Of a stretch of 64,000 nucleotides of DNA, positions 9,037 through 31,490 are shown piece by piece; positions within the stretch are counted from its first letter, which is position 1, and the number at the start of each line of letters is the position of its first letter. The notes beneath the pieces were generated by a model that worked only from the letters and a program-made list of their open reading frames with translations, made no database searches and was not told the DNA's origin. A program made the position numbers and the translations under genes. The DNA comes from Medicago truncatula (Eukaryota > Streptophyta > Magnoliopsida > Fabales > Fabaceae): contig NC_053044.1 in assembly GCF_003473485.1 (NCBI RefSeq), positions 38,010,091-38,074,090 on the forward strand. The letters run 5' to 3'.

Positions 9037-9240
9037 TAAATGTCAAAATGAAATATATTAATCAAACCGAGCAAGTCTTCCGATGTAAGTTGTGCTAGAA
9101 AAGACTTGAAAAGAGTTACAAGACAAAGTCCAACATGAACAAGGAAAACAAAAAAAGAAACAAACTAGGATACATATTGTAAGCAATCACGAGGATTAAA
9201 CCTCCAACGTATCTCTCAACAAATAAGTACCTGCTTTGAA
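9037..9240 (-). mobile_element. LINE-like 3' end with poly(A)
   Basis: Read on the minus strand, a short frame ends WRFNPRDCLQYVS and then a stop. About 150 bp of untranslated sequence follows, ending in an A-rich tail near 9037-9045. A 5'-truncated copy ending in poly(A) is typical of non-LTR retrotransposition. The family is not certain. Confidence 0.45.
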
Positions 9241-9261
9241 TCTAGCTTTGTTTTTTCTAAT

Positions 9262-10998
9262 AATGATGACATTATGTTATGGCATTTAAGGTTAGGATAT
9301 CCTAGTTTTTCGTATTTGAAACACTTGTTCCCTAAATTATTTTCTAAGAAGGATCCTACTTTATTTCATTGTGAAACTCGTGAATTTGCTAAACATCATC
9401 GTTCATCTTTTTCTACACAACCATATAAGCATTCAAAGCCTTTTGCAGCTATTCACAGTGATGTTTGGGGTCTTAATAAAATAAGCACTTTTTCAAATAA
9501 AAAATGGTTTATAACTTTTATTGATGATCATACCAGAATTTATTGGGATTATTTGTTAAAAGAAAAATCAGAAGTTAGACAAACTGTTAAGAACTTCTAT
9601 AAAATGGTGCAGACCCAATATCAAACAAATGTTGAAGTCTTCAGAAGTGACAATGGTACAGAATATTTTAATATGGTTTTGTCCGATTTTTTCCATAAAA
9701 ATGGGGTTATTCATCAAAGTTCTTGTGTTAATACACCCCAACAAAATGGAATTGCAGAGAAAAAATAGGCACCTTCTAGAGGTTGCAAGAGCTTTACTCT
9801 TTGCTAACAAGGTTCCAAAATATTTATGGTGATGCTGGTTTGACTGCTTCATATTTAATTAATCGTATGCCGTCTAAAGTTTTAGATTTCAAAACCCCTC
9901 TTGATATTTTCAAAAAATATTTTCCTCTGACTCGTGTGTCTGCCGAATTACCACTAAAAGTTTTTAGTTGCACTGCTTTTGTTCATGAACATAAACATAT
10001 CGGCAAACTCGAGCCATCAAATGTGTTTTTATTGGTTACTCTCCAACTCAAAAGGGGTATAAGTGTTTTGACCCAAAAACAAAAAAGGTTTTTGCAAACA
10101 TGGATGTTACTTTTGTTGAGAATCAATCTTTTTTTTTATAACATTCATCTTGGGAGGGGGGAGGGGGGACTTGAAAGAAGATTCTTTTTTTGAAAATATT
10201 ATTGCTTTAAGTGATGTAGTGTTGTCACAAAATTATGAGACTAACATTGGTGCACCAAAAGAAAATGCCCAAGAATCGATGGAACTCAATCCGCCTGTGA
10301 ATGAGGTACCTACGAATTATGGGGCAACATTTTCAAATCAAAACCATAATGAACAAATTCTTGATATCGATAGTAATGAGGAAGAGCCTGAAATGCCACA
10401 ACAAAATGACTCAAATAAAGAAACACAAATAAGGTTTAATAGAAGTGATCCTATTTGGAAGGGAAATGTCTATGAAAGAAGGGACCATAAAAGGGGAGAT
10501 GAAGGACCCATTCTCCAGCCCTGCCAAGAATATGAACCAAGAAATGATCCTAATCATCATCCAAATCCTGGTAAGTCTTCTATTCCTAAGTGACGTGGTA
10601 AGTCTTCTTCTATTACTACAAGTGATGATCCTGATTTACATATACCTATAGCAATTAGGAAACCGGTTAGATCGTATCCGATGTCTAAATTTGTGTCATA
10701 CTCAAATTTGTCTTCTTCACTTGATGTGTTTACCTCTCAGTTGTCTGCTGTAGAAATTCCCAAAAATGTACGTGAGACTCTAAAAAATCCAAAGTGGAAG
10801 GAAGTTGTTCTAGAGGAGATGAGAGCTCTTGAAAAGAATAAAACTTGGAAAATCATGACTTTACCTACAGGGAAAATTGTCGGTTGTAAGTGGGTCTTTA
10901 CGGTAAAGTATAACTCTGACAACATAGTTGAAAGATACAAGGCACGCTTGGTTGCTAAAGGATTTACTCATGCATATGGCATAGACTACTCATAGACT
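9262..10998 (+). mobile_element. Ty1/copia retrotransposon fossil (internal pol part)
   Basis: The recognisable parts, in order, are a GAG-pre-integrase-like segment, an integrase core, the integrase-RT linker and the start of the copia reverse transcriptase. The RT start carries motifs such as WKIMTLPTGK and KARLVAKGF. Most of RT, RNase H, gag and both LTRs are absent. The copy is broken, with several breaks, and looks old. It ends abruptly where another copia fragment of opposite orientation begins. Confidence 0.85.
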
Positions 10999-12182: not shown

Positions 12183-13559
12183 ATTGTTGGTTATTTGTCA
12201 AGTTTCTTACAAATTGAAATTACCCCCTTATCCATTAATTTTACCTAATTGTAACTTTATGAATTGTAAATTTATTAATCAAGTATTTGGATTAACTTAA
12301 TCTTATCCTTAAACCGAATATTGAGTTTTCAAAAAAAAAATATATATATTGTTAAATAGAACCTAAGTTTAAATCATGTTGAAACAATCGTTCCATCAAA
12401 TCATGTTATTTAGCTCCCGACTAAACTTAGGATAACCAAGGTCTCATCCCTTCGTAATGAGATGTTTAAAAATATCATCAGTGTATATGAATAATCAATC
12501 TCTTTATTGCTTTAATTTTTGTATCAATGTCTACTTTTCTTTGTAAATATATGGTTGTCACATAAATTATCATGTAAATGATTGTTCAAATAACACACTT
12601 CTCAGATGAAATGAAAAGAATGGTGCACCATTACAGAGACAGATATCGTATTTACTTTGAAGGCTGTGTCCAAATTGACGATTTAGTTTCCTTCCAGTCA
12701 TATTATTAAGGTAATAGAAAAGAGAAGAAGAAAAAAAGACGCAAATGATTACAATGATAAAAATGAGCTTTACCATGTTTTTGAGTATATAGTGCATACA
12801 TGTGTCTTGTAGGTGGTGCCTGCTCAGGATTCAGTAGGCACATTCACAACACCACCATAGTCAACCAATGCTTTTTATGATTAAAGATATAAAAAGTAAA
12901 AGAAAAGTGTATACATCCTTTAAACTCATTACTCCAAAGCCAAATTTAGTGCATGACATTGTTGATTAAAAAGAGAGTCAACAACAAGATCATTGTGTCT
13001 GATTAACCACCTATACAAAATCTAGATGGCATGATTAAACTGCTTTCAGTTTCACACACTACTCCAGCATGCAGTATATTTTAGATGAATATTGAAATCA
13101 TATATAAATTCTTCTGCAGAAAATAAATTTGTTACATTGTCTCAATGTGTGATATATCTATCTACAGTTGAAATATCAAGTTTGAATAAGCAATTCCTCA
13201 TTTAGTTGAAAAAAATTGTTAGTGTTGAACAATATATATACAAGTGAATAGACTCCTACGTTAAATTAAGAATTTGGATGAATATTTACAGTGTTCAAAC
13301 CACATGTGTGTTTGCTAATGTAATAATCCTTCGCTGTTTTAGGTTTTCATCGTATCACAAACATCTATTATGTACATTAAAGCTTTGAATGTGTAATGTC
13401 TTGTACGGCATATGGCACATTGGTTTTGTTTCATATGTTGTGTTCAACGCAATATTTTATTCCATACGGCATATATATGGTATTATTGATTAATGTAATT
13501 AATACACAGGAAAGATTGTAACCAAAACAGTAAGGAAGTAAAAGAAGAATCTGCAATTC
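12183..13559. other. Gene-free spacer
   Basis: AT-rich sequence. The phrase 'acggcatat' recurs at about 13410 and 13466. I see no coding exon and no clear transposon edge. Confidence 0.35.
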
Positions 13560-14260
13560 ATAAATCTAAAAATGTTACAAATTAGATACAGCAATAGATA
13601 GGCTTACATTCACCTGTTTACACTCACTTAACACAACTATTATTCAGATAATAATTAAAATCTACTCATCTGAAAATTAAGCCTAATATAGTAAAGGTAC
13701 AAAGTGCAGAAATAAATCTGAATGAAACATGAAACCATATGCATGCATGGCAGCATCACTAGCTGCATATATATAGCATATATGCATGGTTGCACACTCT
13801 TCAAATCAAAAACCAAATCAAGAAAAAGAGAGAGCAATTAATTAGTAAAGAAGAAATAATGAAAAATGATATAATTCGGACCAGGAATGCTTAATTCCCC
13901 ATGGATGGTTTCTAGGCCTTCCACTTCATAATTGGTGTGATTGCCTCAAGCTAGTTTATGGAAATTTTCAGCTCCCATATCAAACTAGGCAAGTACTGCA
14001 TGCTGCTGCTGATGATGATGATGAGAAAGATGAATATGTGAGTTGTGCAAAGTGAAGGTAGAGAAGATCCATGTTGAGATTGATATGAGAGTATATAGAA
14101 CAAGACATTCTTCAACTTTAACATAATCATGACTTATTAATTGTTTAACAATTAAAAGTACTATGAATAGAGACAGAGAAGAGAGAAAGAGGTACTCATA
14201 TAGATAGAGAGATTAATTTGTATATATATGAACATGTAACATGTAAGATATATAGGTATA
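13560..14260 (-). ncRNA. Candidate long non-coding RNA carrying a miR166-pairing site
   Basis: This transcript is inferred. The minus strand has a TATA-like TATTTATATA around 14258-14271, then CT-rich leader sequence. Upstream, at 14431-14453, there is a GA/CT tract common in plant promoters. Reading frames in the region are short: one of 30 codons starts with MDLLYLHF and is Ser-rich, another reads MKWKA. AT-rich sequence follows to about 13560. The key element is the bulged miR165/166 site at 13876-13900. Both transcript ends are guesses. Nothing here shows that the region is transcribed. Confidence 0.45.
13876..13900 (-). promoter_or_regulatory. Candidate endogenous target mimic site for miR165/166
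   Basis: The minus strand reads GGGGAATTAAG, then CATT, then CCTGGTCCGA. The canonical miR166 sequence is TCGGACCAGG followed by CTTCATTCCCC. The 3' ten bases of the site pair perfectly with miRNA positions 1-10. The 5' eleven bases pair with positions 11-21 except for one mismatch at position 14. The extra CATT bulges opposite the normal cleavage point between positions 10 and 11. This layout blocks slicing and sequesters the miRNA, as known for IPS1 and miR399. There is no star-like arm nearby on the plus strand, so it is not a MIR166 precursor. Confidence 0.65.
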
Positions 14261-15894
14261 TAAATAAATAAGTAACCAGGCACAATAAAAACAGAAAAGG
14301 CAGGGTTGTGATGCACGCATACTGTGTGTGGAGAGAAGCTGGCTAATCTTATATTCCCGCATGCAAAAAATTTCTCTTTAATACAGTGTGGGCACGTTTT
14401 CACAAAGATAAAAAGGCAAACAATGAAAGGGATATAGAGAGAGAGAGAGAGAATGAAAGGGTCTTGTGTTGGAGATCCAAGTAATTAAATAAGAAAATTT
14501 TTAGATGAACAATTTTGATTTTTGATCTACCATGAAACAATTCTTGAAAATCGTCTGAAATTCTAATGAAAACATTATAGTATTCTCGTCCTCACGAGAC
14601 GATGAATTAATCATTGTTAGTTGGCAAAAACAACGGAAAACGAATAAGTGTTGTTCAAAACTCGACTCAAATTTGTTTTTCTTGTTTTTATCGAATTAAC
14701 ACCGATCAGATCATCGTCTCAGCCACAAAAATTAAGAGGATCGTGGTCGTCAATCTTCATTAGAATTTTGATTGGTTTTTGAATACCATTCTATTTTAGG
14801 CCACTAGATAGTCCACATTAGAATTCACTAACTAAGTATTCTTTTTGTTGGCAACTTGTGTTAAAGGCTGCTCCCTGATCTCCGAATAGGTGTTTGTCTT
14901 TTTTGGCTTTTCTTTTCCTTTATCTTTTGGTCGGTTTGTGTCAAAAAAGTATTATAATTTTTTGGAACACTTTGCTTGTAAGTGCTTGCTGTAGCATGCA
15001 TGTGGGTTTTGTCTGAAACTTAATAAACAAAATATATAAATTTTTACACATACATAGTGATCTGAATCTTGATCTGATCTGATCTTCACCAACCTACTTT
15101 GTATGTAGAGAATAGGTGGTGTATGCTTTGTGGGGGAGAATGATGCCTCCCCACATGTCAGTGATACTGATACCTCTCCCATGTATACTTGTAAAATACA
15201 AAGGATGAAAAAAGAAAGTCCTTGCACATGGAACATTTTTTAAGGATAATGTTGTAGTTAAATAATTGTATTAAGAATTAATGACATGAGCCAGCCAAGT
15301 CAGACAATTATATAGTATGCTTTAATTTGGTGATCCGTATATTAGTTTAGGATCTTGTTGCATACTGAATTAAAGAATGTTCTTTTTGAATTAAGAATGA
15401 CAATGGAATATTAATGTATCAAAAAAGAAAAAGTGAAAGCTTGTATGTAAGTGGAATCTTGATTAATATATGGATCTTCATGTGCCATAATGAATACTTT
15501 GGATTCTGATTATTAGAATCCATCAATTCAGGTAGAATATGATCGCGATTCAACTAAAGGCATCAACTTTAGGAATTTCTAGCTAGCAAAGGTAGATAGG
15601 GAGGCCAGACCTTTTTTACCGGAGAAATTAATGAAAATGTGTTCAACATAATGAAGTATCTCTACCATAATTTATAAAGTAGTTGGAGATGTAGTCGTCT
15701 TAACAAGAGCGGAAGCAACCTCATTTGTTTGTCTTATAATACACTTACACTAGAGACTAAAAAAATTGAAAACTAAAGCTCTGCAATGATGTTTGATATT
15801 TCCAAACTTTGAAATCGCTTGAGGCCAAACCTTGTTAAACAGCTTTTTTTTTACAGAAAAACCTTGTCAAACAACTTGATGTACATCTTTTAAT

Positions 15895-17232: not shown

Positions 17233-20200
17233 TTAGTCAGGAAGCTCAGAACGCTCCCTCTTTGCTGTATCTATCATTGTACATAAGAACTTGATAGGGT
17301 TGCAATCAAAAGGATTTGCAAGTGCAGCATGTGCCAAAAACGGAAGCTTTCTGAGAGACCTTCCACTCATTCCCTGTGGACACGACACAGATCAAACACG
17401 ACAGTTATTGAGATATAATGGTCGACCTAAAGATTGTGAGGTTAAAGATCAAGAAGTGTTATCTTTTTTTCCTACCTCGCATGCCTCTGCAGTTTCAACT
17501 AGTTTCTTGCACAGTTGCATGAATGTAGTAGCTTCATGAAAATCTGGTGCGTTCATTCTCTGTTTTGCACTAGCGTAATTTGGCAGCATGATATTCTTAC
17601 AATCCTAACCAAGTCAGCATGATTATCCATTAGATTAACAAACTAAAATATCTGAATCCAAATAAAGATTAGATTATTAATGCCTTTCGTTTTCAAAAAA
17701 GATTCCGGGAGAAGATTGAGACCTATCTGTACCTCAAAATTAGTTAATATCCCTGTACGCATAAGTTCCTGCACACAAGACCTTAATATTTCATACCGGG
17801 CTTGAAGAGTTGGTGGGCCAACATATGCTTTGATATCAGCTCGATCAACAAAAGCAATATCTGCATGAAATTGATAAAATTGTATGATCTGTGAAATTAC
17901 ATTTCAAATGAAATTTATTGGGGAAGTGGATCATGAAGAAACTATTTTAGGAAGACATTGGAGTGATGTTCCTAACTAGTGGAGAAAGGTTTTTCTTGTG
18001 ATGTGTTTTAGGTTAAAGTGAGGTTAATTCCAGATACAGGCATATTATTGTTTTAGACTTTAGTCTGATGCTGGCAACAGAAGTCCGTGCTTAATATTTT
18101 AGCAATTTGACTTTCATTCAGTGCATTCCCTTTTTTTACGGTCAGTGGGTCACAAAATCCTCATTAAGGGAAGCTAGATCTTTAGTTCTCAAATAAAAAT
18201 TAGACTGATGTATAATGACAGACAGATCTAACTATCAATATCATCATATTTATAGAACAGAACAGGAGATAACTTACAAGGACATAAGCTGCAAAATTGA
18301 ATGATGAGAAAGTGTGATATAGGCTTACCGATAGCAGCAGTGATGTTGGATGTTGTTAGAATTATAACATTTGGAGATGATTTTAACTTATCCATCTGAG
18401 TTAATAATGCATTGACAACCTGAAATTGAATATTCAGATTGAACCCATATTATAACAGACACCCATAAAGAAGTCATTACTTCTGAACTACATTTTTACA
18501 TGTTTGTGACTATGTGTAACGATCTATCGCATTTTCAGAAAATCGTGTGGAGGGCAGGGAGTTTACCCGAATAGAATCAGAAGGTTCAGAACCAGACAAA
18601 GCAGCTTTTCTGGCAGCAGCAAGACTTTCGACTTCATCTGCAGGATCGCAAACATATATATCTAAGCAGATATATAAAAATATACACATGCAGTAAGTTG
18701 ATTTTTCTTCAATTATGCCTCACCGATCAAAACAAATACCAGATTGCCTTCTTCCTCTACCATTTCTTGAATCTTTTGGAAAAGTTTTGCTACCTAGAAA
18801 ATAAAGAAACGCCATTACGCATTGGACACAACAAAACTACAAACTTGGTTTGTGTATAGTATATTGCTTTGTTACAGTTAGCAATTTCACCAATTGACTT
18901 ATCTCCGCGATTCAACACTTCTTAAATTCCAAAATGGATAGTTAAATGATACTAAGAGATTCTTGGATTATAGTTAAGGGAAATAACATAGTTTATGACT
19001 AACGACTCCAAATGGCCATCTAAATGATACACGTAATTTACTAATTAATCATACATTATTTTTCACACACACACATGCCCATCTCAATGCCCATTTGGTA
19101 TACTTTTTTCTTTCATTATTTTTTGTTGAAATATGTGATAAAACATAGGTTAAGCATCTCAATGAACTAATATTAATTACAAACTGCTGACTGCCAAATC
19201 ACCCATGCCCTAAAATGTTTCATCCTCTTGTTAGTTGGTAAATGGTAATTATAAACTAAGTCGACCTCCCAGCATAATAATGCTCTAAGAATGTGTTTTC
19301 AAGCATAAAGTTGGTAATTCTAATCCATCGTATAAAGGTAGAATGGGCATATGAGCAACCTTAACCAATCCTAATGGTTAAAGATCTGCATCACTACCCA
19401 AACTCAAAAGTCATGCCCAAACCATAGGGATAAACAGAAATTTCATATCTCCTGGATGCAATTCTAACTACCAAACAGTGGGTTTTCCTAGCTATTGAGT
19501 CAATTCAATCCTTTGATCAAGCTTGATATCAATTTGAAAGCGACAAGGGTAAGTACATAAGTTCTATCCCCCCAGCCCACATAACATGAAGGAAATTTGA
19601 TTGCCAAGATCACCAATATAATAAACATTGAAGCTAATAAGTAATAAAAGTGTGAATTACAAAAGGCCAATAAGAAATTTACAAAAATGACATAAACCTA
19701 AAGTAAAGGCATACATGCATACCAGCTTTCCGCTTTCGGAGAACCATTTACTGAACAAAGAATGTGCATTCACTTCAACAAGCTGAGCCTGTGGGAATCT
19801 GAGTGGGAAAAAATGGTAGGTAAATTTGTACTCCCTTCATTTACTTGTTTTCAATGATAAATATGATTAAGAGTATAAATAATAGATCAATTTACCTTGA
19901 ATTGAATCGAATTGACAGTTTCTGAGCTAATGCTTTACATAAAGACGTCTTTCCAGTCCCAGGGGGTCCATGCAAAAGAATTATGCTGCAAATAATGACA
20001 AATCCTAAAATTATCAAGATATGCGAATAGGTAAATCATCTCATCTCACTCATGCTCACTCATGTTCGACTATCATTTTATATAAATGCATAATATATGT
20101 AAAGATACAATGTTTTTCAGGAACATATAATCATCAGTAAGTTGTGGTCACAACATATAAGGCAATACAAAAATAAATACATATCTCTAGTACTCACCGG

Positions 20201-22343: not shown

Positions 22344-23477
22344 TTGGCTGAGAAATATTAGTAATTTACCTAAATGTTCTTCGGCAGTTAACTGCTGAAT
22401 TATGAAACCGGCTGCAGTTAACTGCCGAGGAAAAGTTCGGCAGTAAACTACCGAGGAAAACTGAAAATTTCTGCAGTTAACTGCCGAGGAAACCTCAAAT
22501 CTGTTTTTTTTTTTTTTTGACAAAAACCATAAATATTCTTTGAGAATATTCCGCGGTCTTTATCATTTTTGATTGATTTTTCTTAATAATTCGTTTTTAA
22601 TTTTATTGATTTGCCTTCCTTATTTATTTTAATTGTATTACTCCTTTGATCTTCTTTTTTTTTGTTATAACTGCTTTGATCTTCAACAATAGTAAATATT
22701 TTATTTCCAAAGAACTTTCACGGAATTTTATTCTTTTATTTCCTTTTTACGGAAATATTCACAATTATTTTAATTGTATTACTCATTTGATCTTCTTCTT
22801 TTTTTGCCTATTTTATTTCCAAAGAACTTTCACGGAATTTTCTTCTTTTATTTCCTTTTTCTTTGTTTTAGGCTTAACATTTAAGTCCTCAAAAAACATT
22901 TCAATAAGTGTAAAAATTAAGTATTTGAATATTGTTTTGCAAATTACTTAAATAAATAAAAAAATCTTTGTACACAATTATTTTAATGTAGAAAATATAA
23001 CAACATATTATACCTTAAAAAAAATCGTTGTGCACAATTATTTTAACAATTTTTTTATTATTATTTGTATTTAAGTAATGTGCAAAACAATATTCAAATG
23101 CTTAGTTTTTACACTGATTTAAATGTTATTCTTATTAAGATATATACGCATAAGTATAATACTCCAATTGTTTGAAACGTACCAAAATAATGAGTGAAAC
23201 ATTCAAAATCAATAAATATTATTAAAGACAATTTATGATTTTTGTCAAAAAAAAAAAACAAAGGGTTTGTTATTAATGACAATTTATGGATTTTGTCAAA
23301 AAAAAAAAAAAAACAAGTTTGAGGTTTCCTCGGTAGTTAACTGCCGAAGTTTTTCAGTTTTCCTCGGTAGTTTACTGCCGAAGTTTTCCTCGGCAGTTAA
23401 CTGCAGCCGTATTTCTAAAACTTCGGCAGTTAACTGCCGAGGGACATTTGAGTAATTTACTCATGTGGCACAGCCAA
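22344..23477. mobile_element. Large fold-back element with repeated GTTAAC palindromes
   Basis: Inverted arms at about 22344-22530 and 23230-23477 match in reverse complement. Each arm carries four copies of a roughly 20-bp palindrome built on CGGCAGTTAACTGCCG, eight in all (for example near 22379, 22415, 22436, 22472 and 23330, 23362, 23386, 23425). A poly(T)/poly(A) run with 'gacaaaa' follows on the inner side of each arm. Further in is a second inverted pair (about 22905-22955 and 23075-23125). A direct duplication lies near 22630-22740 and 22765-22865. There is no transposase. The superfamily and any target duplication are unclear. Confidence 0.75.
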
Positions 23478-27117: not shown

Positions 27118-27468
27118 CTATGGCCTGAATGTCTTCCATTTGTGCAATTCAAGACCACCTGGTCTGTTCCTTCGTGGATAACTTTGATTGGTTTCAACAT
27201 CAACGCCCTCTTCAATTTCGTAGATCACTTTATCACCATACCTAACCTCAGGTACTCGTTCATACTCCACCACTTCAACCCTCTCACGAATCACAGGGTT
27301 GTGGTGGTGGTGATGGAGGCCAGGGGATCTCTCGATATCATCTTCCTCATAGATAACCCTCTTGTTGAAGGCCATCTCGGCATTTGGGTAGCGAGGGACG
27401 TCGGTGAGAATACTTGGCTCCCTTCTGACACCTGAAATGTGGGAGAGGTAGTCCTCGGATCTCAACAT
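27118..27468 (-). CDS. Small acidic/His-rich protein, copy A (116 aa)
   Basis: Single-exon frame of 116 residues with an ATG start at 27468. It begins MLRSEDYLSHISGVRREP. The middle carries FNKRVIYEEDDIE, a His run (HHHHH) and the charged stretch RVEVVEYERVPEVRYG. It ends KWKTFRP. It has no signal peptide, no membrane segment and no domain I recognise. The paralogue at 30448-30777 keeps the same order of motifs and the same TFRP end. Conservation of the frame with substitutions and small in-frame length changes supports real coding. Function is unknown. The promoter of this copy carries a hairpin insert that copy B lacks. Confidence 0.85.
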   Translation of the reverse strand: MLRSEDYLSHISGVRREPSILTDVPRYPNAEMAFNKRVIYEEDDIERSPGLHHHHHNPVIRERVEVVEYERVPEVRYGDKVIYEIEEGVDVETNQSYPRRNRPGGLELHKWKTFRP

Positions 27469-30289: not shown

Positions 30290-31490
30290 ATACATGATAT
30301 AAATATGCTTCATTAATTATTGATACACGATTCATATAACATAATAACGGCTGGCTAAGCAGGAGTTTATTTAATTAATACAAACACACATCGGTGATCA
30401 TATGTTAAGATATCCTGCCTTGCATGTTAAGTAACCATCAAACAAGCTTATGGCCTGAATGTGTTCCATGAGTGACCATTTGACCTGGTCCTTCGTGGGT
30501 AATATTGATTATTGGTCTCAACATCCACGTCCTCTTCGTAGATCACTTGACCACCATAGGGCCTAACCTCAGGTACACGTTCATATTCCACCACTTCAAC
30601 CCTCTCAACGATCTCAGGGTTGTGGTGGTGGCGTCCATGGCGCGATCCTTCAATCGCGTCTTCCTCGTAGACAACCCTCTTGTTGAAGGCCATCTCACCA
30701 TTTGGGTAGCGAGAGTAGTCGCTAGGCTCCCTTCGAACTTCTGAAATGTGGGTGTGGTAGTCATTGGATCTCATCATTGTTTCTCTTGTTTGTTTTGTAG
30801 ATGACTCTTGCTTAATTTCTGCTACAACTATGATATTGAATTGGTAAGTGGGTGTATTTATATCAACCGATATATGTCGACATATATTCTTTATCCTTAG
30901 TATTATTCAAAGAGATAATAAATTTTGAATCTAATTCCCTTCATGTACATGACATTTAGCCATCAATAGCTAAAAAGTGGATGCCGTGTGGGAAAAGGAG
31001 GGAGTTTGACATTGCATGCAGTTCATTGTTCTTGGCAAGTTTAATGATCAAATTGACGTGTGAATAATTTCAGTAGAAGAATATTGATAAAGAAGCAACA
31101 AATGAAGGTTGGTCCGGTCAATAAGAATTAAACTTGTATTTCACAAGAGGCGTAGACTTAGTTCCACTGCAGTCTGCAGCATAATATGTTATTATGTTAG
31201 CGTTTTTTGAGCTTGAGATTTGTCTTGACTTTAGCCTATCCATTTAAAAAATCCATGTAAATTTTTATTTATGGAAGAAAAATATTCCGAGGTACGGCTG
31301 TTAAAAATACTCAAATTATAGGAGCAATTCTTTTAACAATTGGCATAGGAATTTTTTAATATTAGACTTGTCCTTGTTTAAGAACTTATTTTGAATAGAC
31401 AGATACAATTATTTGAGAGCATAAAAGAAAAAGATTTTACTTTATTCTCCAAAAATGTCAGTTCATAAAATTCTTTCAAAAATATCATGA
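30290..31490 (-). repeat. Duplicated block, copy B
   Basis: Paralogous partner of 26880-28195 in the same orientation, about 3.3 kb away. Both flanks and the gene match, with many substitutions and small indels. The duplication is therefore not recent. Confidence 0.85.
30448..30777 (-). CDS. Small acidic/His-rich protein, copy B (109 aa)
   Basis: Single-exon frame of 109 residues starting at the ATG at 30777, with a second ATG directly after it. It shares RREPS, YPN, EMAFNKRV, YEED, the HHHN region, ERVEVVEYERVPEVR, DVETN, YYPRR and the C-terminal TFRP with copy A at 27118-27468. The two differ mainly in the linker between RREPS and YPN and in the tail. No recognised domain. The strongest constraint appears to lie on the VEVVEYERVPE core and the C-terminal TFRP. 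Function is unknown. Confidence 0.86.
   Translation of the reverse strand: MMRSNDYHTHISEVRREPSDYSRYPNGEMAFNKRVVYEEDAIEGSRHGRHHHNPEIVERVEVVEYERVPEVRPYGGQVIYEEDVDVETNNQYYPRRTRSNGHSWNTFRP

Follow-up and report, generated by a model that had tools for sequence, protein, structure and literature searches.

Target mimics of the IPS1 type are described as non-coding RNAs in which a central bulge, lying opposite the slicing site, separates two blocks that pair with a miRNA (PMC6162444, PMC3441763, PMC5854128). In Medicago, the described miR399 mimics are Mt4 and PDIL1 (PMC5854128), and miR166 is absent from the main text of that paper. Mimics of miR166 have been tested in Arabidopsis (ath-eTM166-1) and rice (osa-eTM166-2), according to a review (PMC8005961), and in tomato (slylnc0195; PMC4683531), the tests consisting of overexpression or silencing (PMC8005961, PMC4683531), and csi-eTM166 has been proposed as a miR166 mimic in citrus. 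Among engineered decoys, those tested in N. benthamiana were reported to be most active with bulges of 1-4 nt (Ivashuta 2011, PMC3121747), and MIM165/166 gave rounder leaves, the younger ones being cup-shaped (Todesco 2010). PeTMbase, which covers Medicago lncRNAs, applies a 3-nt bulge rule (PMC5148581), also used in soybean (PMC4274897) and pigeonpea surveys.

The locus studied here lies in a window of 64,000 nt, the whole stretch of DNA analysed (C3:38010091-38074090), and genome searches covered 429.9 Mb in 42 contigs. On the minus strand, the 25 nt from 13900 to 13876 read GGGGAATTAAGCATTCCTGGTCCGA, splitting as GGGGAATTAAG-CATT-CCTGGTCCGA (plus strand, TCGGACCAGG-AATG-CTTAATTCCCC), and form a candidate target-mimic site for miR165/166. 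We take miR166 to be UCGGACCAGGCUUCAUUCCCC; the complement of its first 19 bases is present in MIR166 precursors of the same genome. According to both the letters and the duplex prediction, the bases at 13876-13885 pair perfectly with miR166 positions 1-10, the four bases CATT at 13886-13889 are bulged, and those at 13890-13900 pair with positions 11-21 except at position 14 (13893), the single mismatch. The bulge can equally be taken as CATT at 10/11 or, one base further 3', as ATTC at 9/10; either way it faces the slicing position. The preliminary description had given this same arrangement (ten perfectly complementary minus-strand bases, four extra bases, then eleven with one mismatch) and likened its two pairing blocks and bulge opposite the slicing site to the IPS1 mimics of miR399; letters and coordinates confirm the arrangement. 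The predicted duplex with miR166 has an energy of -31.6 kcal/mol, against -44.1 kcal/mol for a perfect complement and -27.3 kcal/mol for an Mt4-type site with miR399. No unbulged miR166 complement was found in the 64-kb window at ≤3 mismatches.

The site has the two-block, central-bulge layout of the miR399 mimics IPS1, At4, Mt4 and PDIL1, and its target miRNA is that of ath-eTM166-1, osa-eTM166-2, slylnc0195 and csi-eTM166, to which it is likened by description and not by sequence. It differs from the first group, whose members carry a 3-nt bulge against miR399, in its miRNA and in having no known phosphate link, and from both groups in its 4-nt bulge and in being known as DNA alone. The strict rules for endogenous target mimics are those of Wu 2013, as quoted in the soybean survey (PMC4274897). 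Measured by them, miRNA positions 2-8 are perfectly paired, the bulge is in the right place (positions 9-12) but is 4 nt long where exactly 3 are prescribed, and there are one mismatch and zero G-U pairs outside the bulge, where up to three are allowed. The site also fits the decoy rules of Ivashuta 2011 (bulge of 1-5 nt at 10/11, ≤3 other mismatches). A 4-nt bulge should work, since inserts of 1-4 nt were the most effective in the decoy tests (PMC3121747); bulge lengths including 4 nt worked in these artificial decoys, which, like MIM165/166, were engineered, unlike the window site.

We found no report of the C3 locus in open-licence papers, among the matches listed and supplements aside, and passages of PMC3441763, PMC9673970 and PMC8306516 mentioned no miR166 mimic for Medicago. 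Searches of papers with sequence words of the site gave none relevant by title among the matches listed, the small RNA of an asparagus small-RNA paper being unrelated, and the genome_contigs and viral_contigs collections, searched as a check for plant contamination, gave no match. The C3 locus would thus be a new miR166 mimic candidate of known mechanism, with a bulge one base over the usual definition, though it may be listed in a supplement or database.

We scanned the window with 28 conserved plant miRNAs, in the sequences that we assume for them, asking for perfect pairing at positions 1-10, a bulge of 1-5 nt and few mismatches in the 3' block. The site at 13876-13900 was the sole match, whether ≤1, ≤2 or ≤3 mismatches were allowed in that block, and 300 dinucleotide shuffles of the window gave in total 0, 0 and 2 matches at these thresholds. 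From base composition, 3e-7 sites would be expected in such a window for miR166, 9e-5 for the 28 miRNAs together, and 0.002 in the whole genome for miR166. A genome search with GGAATNAAGN{0,8}CCTGGTCCGA returned nine matches, eight unbulged and one bulged, the latter being the 13876-13900 site, and the reversed pattern returned none. Chance is a poor explanation for this site. It could still be a sequence that once had a function or arose by chance and now plays no part, lying in intergenic DNA that is transcribed barely or not at all. Mimics are easily predicted and most predictions lack confirmation: for conserved miRNAs of soybean 10,410 were predicted and 144 were expressed (PMC4274897). 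We regard the absence of a role as unlikely, though deserving some weight. Against it stand the ~0.002 such sites expected genome-wide, with 0/300 shuffled windows at ≤2 mismatches, and two more sites like it in the genome, on C6 and C4; neutral drift should also have worn down a stretch of 20 paired bases.

The plus strand raises another explanation. Read on the opposite strand, the site has the 21 nt of miR166 in common with MIR166 precursors, and TCGGACCAGG-AATG-CTTAATTCCCC matches mature miR166 at 20/21 positions, so that 13876-13900 could be what remains of a MIR166 gene, damaged or fragmentary, namely miR166 with four inserted bases. However, searching 13300-14600 with covariance models at E≤10 gave only three chance-level matches, none of them MIR166 (RF00075), whereas all eight perfect genomic complements score as MIR166 precursors. 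There were nine MIR166 model matches in seven of the eight loci, which together cover all eight sites (the overlapping L011 was left out): eight at the sites and one more. In the plus-strand fold of 13700-13960 the site is not paired with a miR166*-like arm, as judged by eye, and a fold as good was reached by 23 of 200 shuffles. The absent model match in 13300-14600, with positive controls that do score, distinguishes the locus from the MIR166 precursors and makes a MIR166 relic very unlikely; an old and fully eroded precursor may be what is left of this explanation.

We consider it probable, judging from sequence, that 13876-13900 is an endogenous target mimic of miR165/166 in a putative non-coding minus-strand RNA. 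The interpretation in the preliminary description is partly supported: the layout is real and non-random, the site matches no MIR166 precursor model, and sister sites occur in the same genome. Its claim of an undescribed kind of regulator does not stand, as miR166 mimics had already been tested in Arabidopsis, rice and tomato. In the proposed mechanism, miR166 in AGO would pair with the minus-strand RNA at positions 1-10 and again at 11-21, the 4 nt bulged out at the cleavage position would prevent slicing, and the loaded miR166 would be held or destabilised, raising HD-ZIP III transcripts wherever the RNA is made. We infer the transcription, non-cleavage and titration of this candidate decoy, and any developmental effect that it may have, in nodules included. 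Since pairing is near-perfect outside the bulge, the RNA could instead be a target that miR166 cleaves, or could set off secondary siRNAs; this is quite improbable, because an RNA bulged at the slicing position should escape cleavage, as in the IPS1 precedent (PMC6162444) and the decoy tests (PMC3121747).

A built-in family of such decoys, if true, would be a second knob on the miR166/HD-ZIP III pathway, in which miR166 sets HD-ZIP III levels. The miR166 site of HD-ZIP III genes spans an exon junction, and the target pattern TGGGATGAAGCCTGGTCCGG had no match in the genome at ≤1 mismatch. Overexpression of Medicago miR166a is reported to give fewer nodules and fewer lateral roots (PMC9623164). 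The 4-nt bulge of the C3 member would be passed over by catalogues built on the 3-nt rule, which suggests that such catalogues miss real decoys.

Two further mimic-like sites for miR166 were found on minus strands elsewhere in the genome. The C6 site (C6:2162812-2162835, GGGGAATCAAGCATCTTGGTCCGA) fits the strict pairing rules, with one mismatch, one G-U pair and a 3-nt bulge, and with this textbook bulge it may be the better functional candidate. The C4 site (C4:52103563-52103586, GGGGAATCAAGCGTCTCGGTCCGA) also matches the 3-nt-bulge pattern and is weaker, having a mismatch at position 8, which breaks the strict 2-8 rule, and a wobble at position 9. The two differ at 2 of 24 site positions, and 24 nt are common in a 26-nt stretch (92%). 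By eye, they share features beyond what pairing with miR166 demands, namely a C and a T opposite positions 14 and 9, respectively, together with two of the three bulged bases. Counted from the letters, the 13876-13900 site matches the C6 site in 22 of 25 aligned columns and the C4 site in 20 of 25. The pattern GGAATNAAGN{2,6}CYYGGTCCGA, which was devised after the C6 and C4 sites had been seen, has exactly three matches genome-wide, those in the C3 window, on C6 and on C4, and none when reversed. With GGAATNAAGN{4,7}TGGTCCGA there were also three matches, this time the window site, the C6 site and one member of a pair near C3:27.7 Mb (not C4), again with none for the reversed pattern. When ≤3 mismatches were allowed genome-wide, the 4-nt-bulge form gave 8 matches vs 2 for the reversed control and the 3-nt form 8 vs 5, so that the weak tail of genome matches nears background.

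The pair at C3:27720785 and C3:27725238 was considered as additional mimics, as its members fit the 4-nt-bulge pattern, the first with 3 mismatches and the second with 2. We excluded it from the family: both lie in repeats resembling copies of a 3' exon from a protein-coding gene, and the pattern does not hold in a third copy nearby, as judged by eye. The two are counted as one event, probably chance-born. The surrounding locus (L034, C3:27718000-27727900) consists of repeated exon-like sequence whose copies resemble miR166 mimic sites to varying degrees.

The relationship among the C3, C6 and C4 loci was examined in their flanks. In the unmasked loci, the site itself is the top alignment for C3-C6 and C6-C4 (0/100 shuffles in each case), and a CT repeat is the top alignment for C3-C4. 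Once the sites were masked, the best alignments were CT repeats, with shuffles as good in 1/100 (C3-C6), 0/100 (C3-C4) and 10/100 (C6-C4). CT repeats are all that the masked loci have in common, so the flanks lend no support to homology of the loci. Reading frames of at least 50 codons gave no match at E≤1e-3 between ~40 kb around the C6 site and 40 kb around the C4 site. The same comparison with the window gave two short marginal matches for C6 and three matches for C4, of which two were retroelement-like and the third lay on the strand opposite to those two. At gathering score, Rfam gave no match in the C6 (L032), C4 (L033) or C3:27.7 Mb (L034) loci. Likeness of sites amid unrelated flanks points to either old relatives that keep just the site or separate origins under the same pairing demand. 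We tentatively raise the former, in which the three dispersed miR166 mimic genes on C3, C6 and C4 would be a small old family, with likeness left only in the 24-25 nt decoy sites, and would be the miR166 counterpart of the Mt4/IPS1 family; we lean somewhat against it.

Another explanation is a conserved short peptide at the mimic sites. By eye, an ATG stands directly before the site at C3 and C6, and the C6 site lies within a ten-codon ATG frame. However, the C3 frame ends after three codons (ATG GGG AAT TAA), C4 has no ATG directly before its site, and one more base in the bulge puts the sequence out of frame (all also by eye), which makes this explanation extremely improbable.

The same genome search was applied to other miRNAs. 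For miR399, the positive control, it gave 22 matches, four of them bulged, including GGGCAACTTCGATCCTTTGGCA, presumably the IPS1/Mt4 motif, and the reversed control gave none. The remaining bulged miR399 sites are at C2:11916688, C2:41695764 and C4:31548780, one of which may, as a guess, be PDIL1. The search for miR160 gave 12 matches with a single bulged one, that for miR164 gave three with none bulged, and that for miR156, restricted to bulged forms and possibly skipping repeat-like words, gave none. The lone bulged miR160 site (C1:16988351-16988373, minus strand, GGCATGCAGGATGGAGCCAGGCA) is a candidate miR160 mimic. Within this set of four controls, which were hand-picked and are no random sample, miR166 groups with miR399, as would fit a selective use of mimicry.

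Regarding the putative decoy RNA, a motif scan found two TATA-like boxes on the minus strand (14222-14254; TATAWAW from 14254 and from 14228), which could be its promoter. Together with a pyrimidine-rich stretch that follows them, seen by eye, they are compatible with a putative RNA start near 14.2 kb. The extent from about 14.25 to 13.56 kb proposed in the preliminary description is a guess, with which the boxes are compatible. On the minus strand from 14260 to 13500 there is no AATAAA, the first one being at 13461, and the longest ATG frame (among those of at least 15 codons) has 59 codons and stops before the mimic site. Repeats within 13400-14500 showed nothing remarkable. The strict mimic rules of Wu 2013 also ask for a distance above 200 nt from neighbouring genes; the nearest host-gene coding sequence among those recognised is a PCH2/TRIP13-like stretch in 17646-17903 on the same strand, ~3.7 kb upstream. 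On the far side of the mimic site, broken retroelement-like frames, which we take to be of copia type, occupy 9169-10995 of the plus strand.

A 443-bp segment at 14071-14513 on the minus strand, the putative promoter or leader, has a 72% identical copy at C5:42257603-42258008 (L035 4604-5009), with a 37-bp direct repeat (92% identical) at its borders, such as an insertion would leave. We rejected this copy as a whole paralogue, since it aligns over 14513-14071 only and ends short of the mimic site. Being partial, site-free and flanked by a direct repeat, it resembles a captured fragment and offers no conservation test.

As to folding, the prediction speaks against the decoy reading: at all three loci the site comes out less open than the sequence around it, with mean unpaired values of 0.44 vs 0.53 in the window, 0.30 vs 0.55 at C6 and 0.47 vs 0.61 at C4. 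The window site folds on itself at -6.4 kcal/mol, and shuffles do equally well; the 271 nt around it are not structured as a whole (187/200 shuffles fold as well). A small stem-loop just upstream of the site, at 13941-13992 on the minus strand, is weakly better than shuffles, 9/200 of which fold as well.

Elsewhere in the window, the Rfam families found were MIR2629 and MIR5272, which we take to be Medicago miRNAs. The MIR2629 matches, at 23376-23447 (plus) and 22374-22442 (minus), are inverted, ~1 kb apart and surrounded by similar reading frames, and are possibly two ends of one repeat element. Two similar short frames lie on the minus strand at 27118-27468 and 30448-30777, beginning with MLRSEDYLSHISGVRREPS and MMRSNDYHTHISEVRREPS, respectively. 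The second, the only one searched, had no Pfam match at E≤0.001; the two are perhaps a tandem gene pair.
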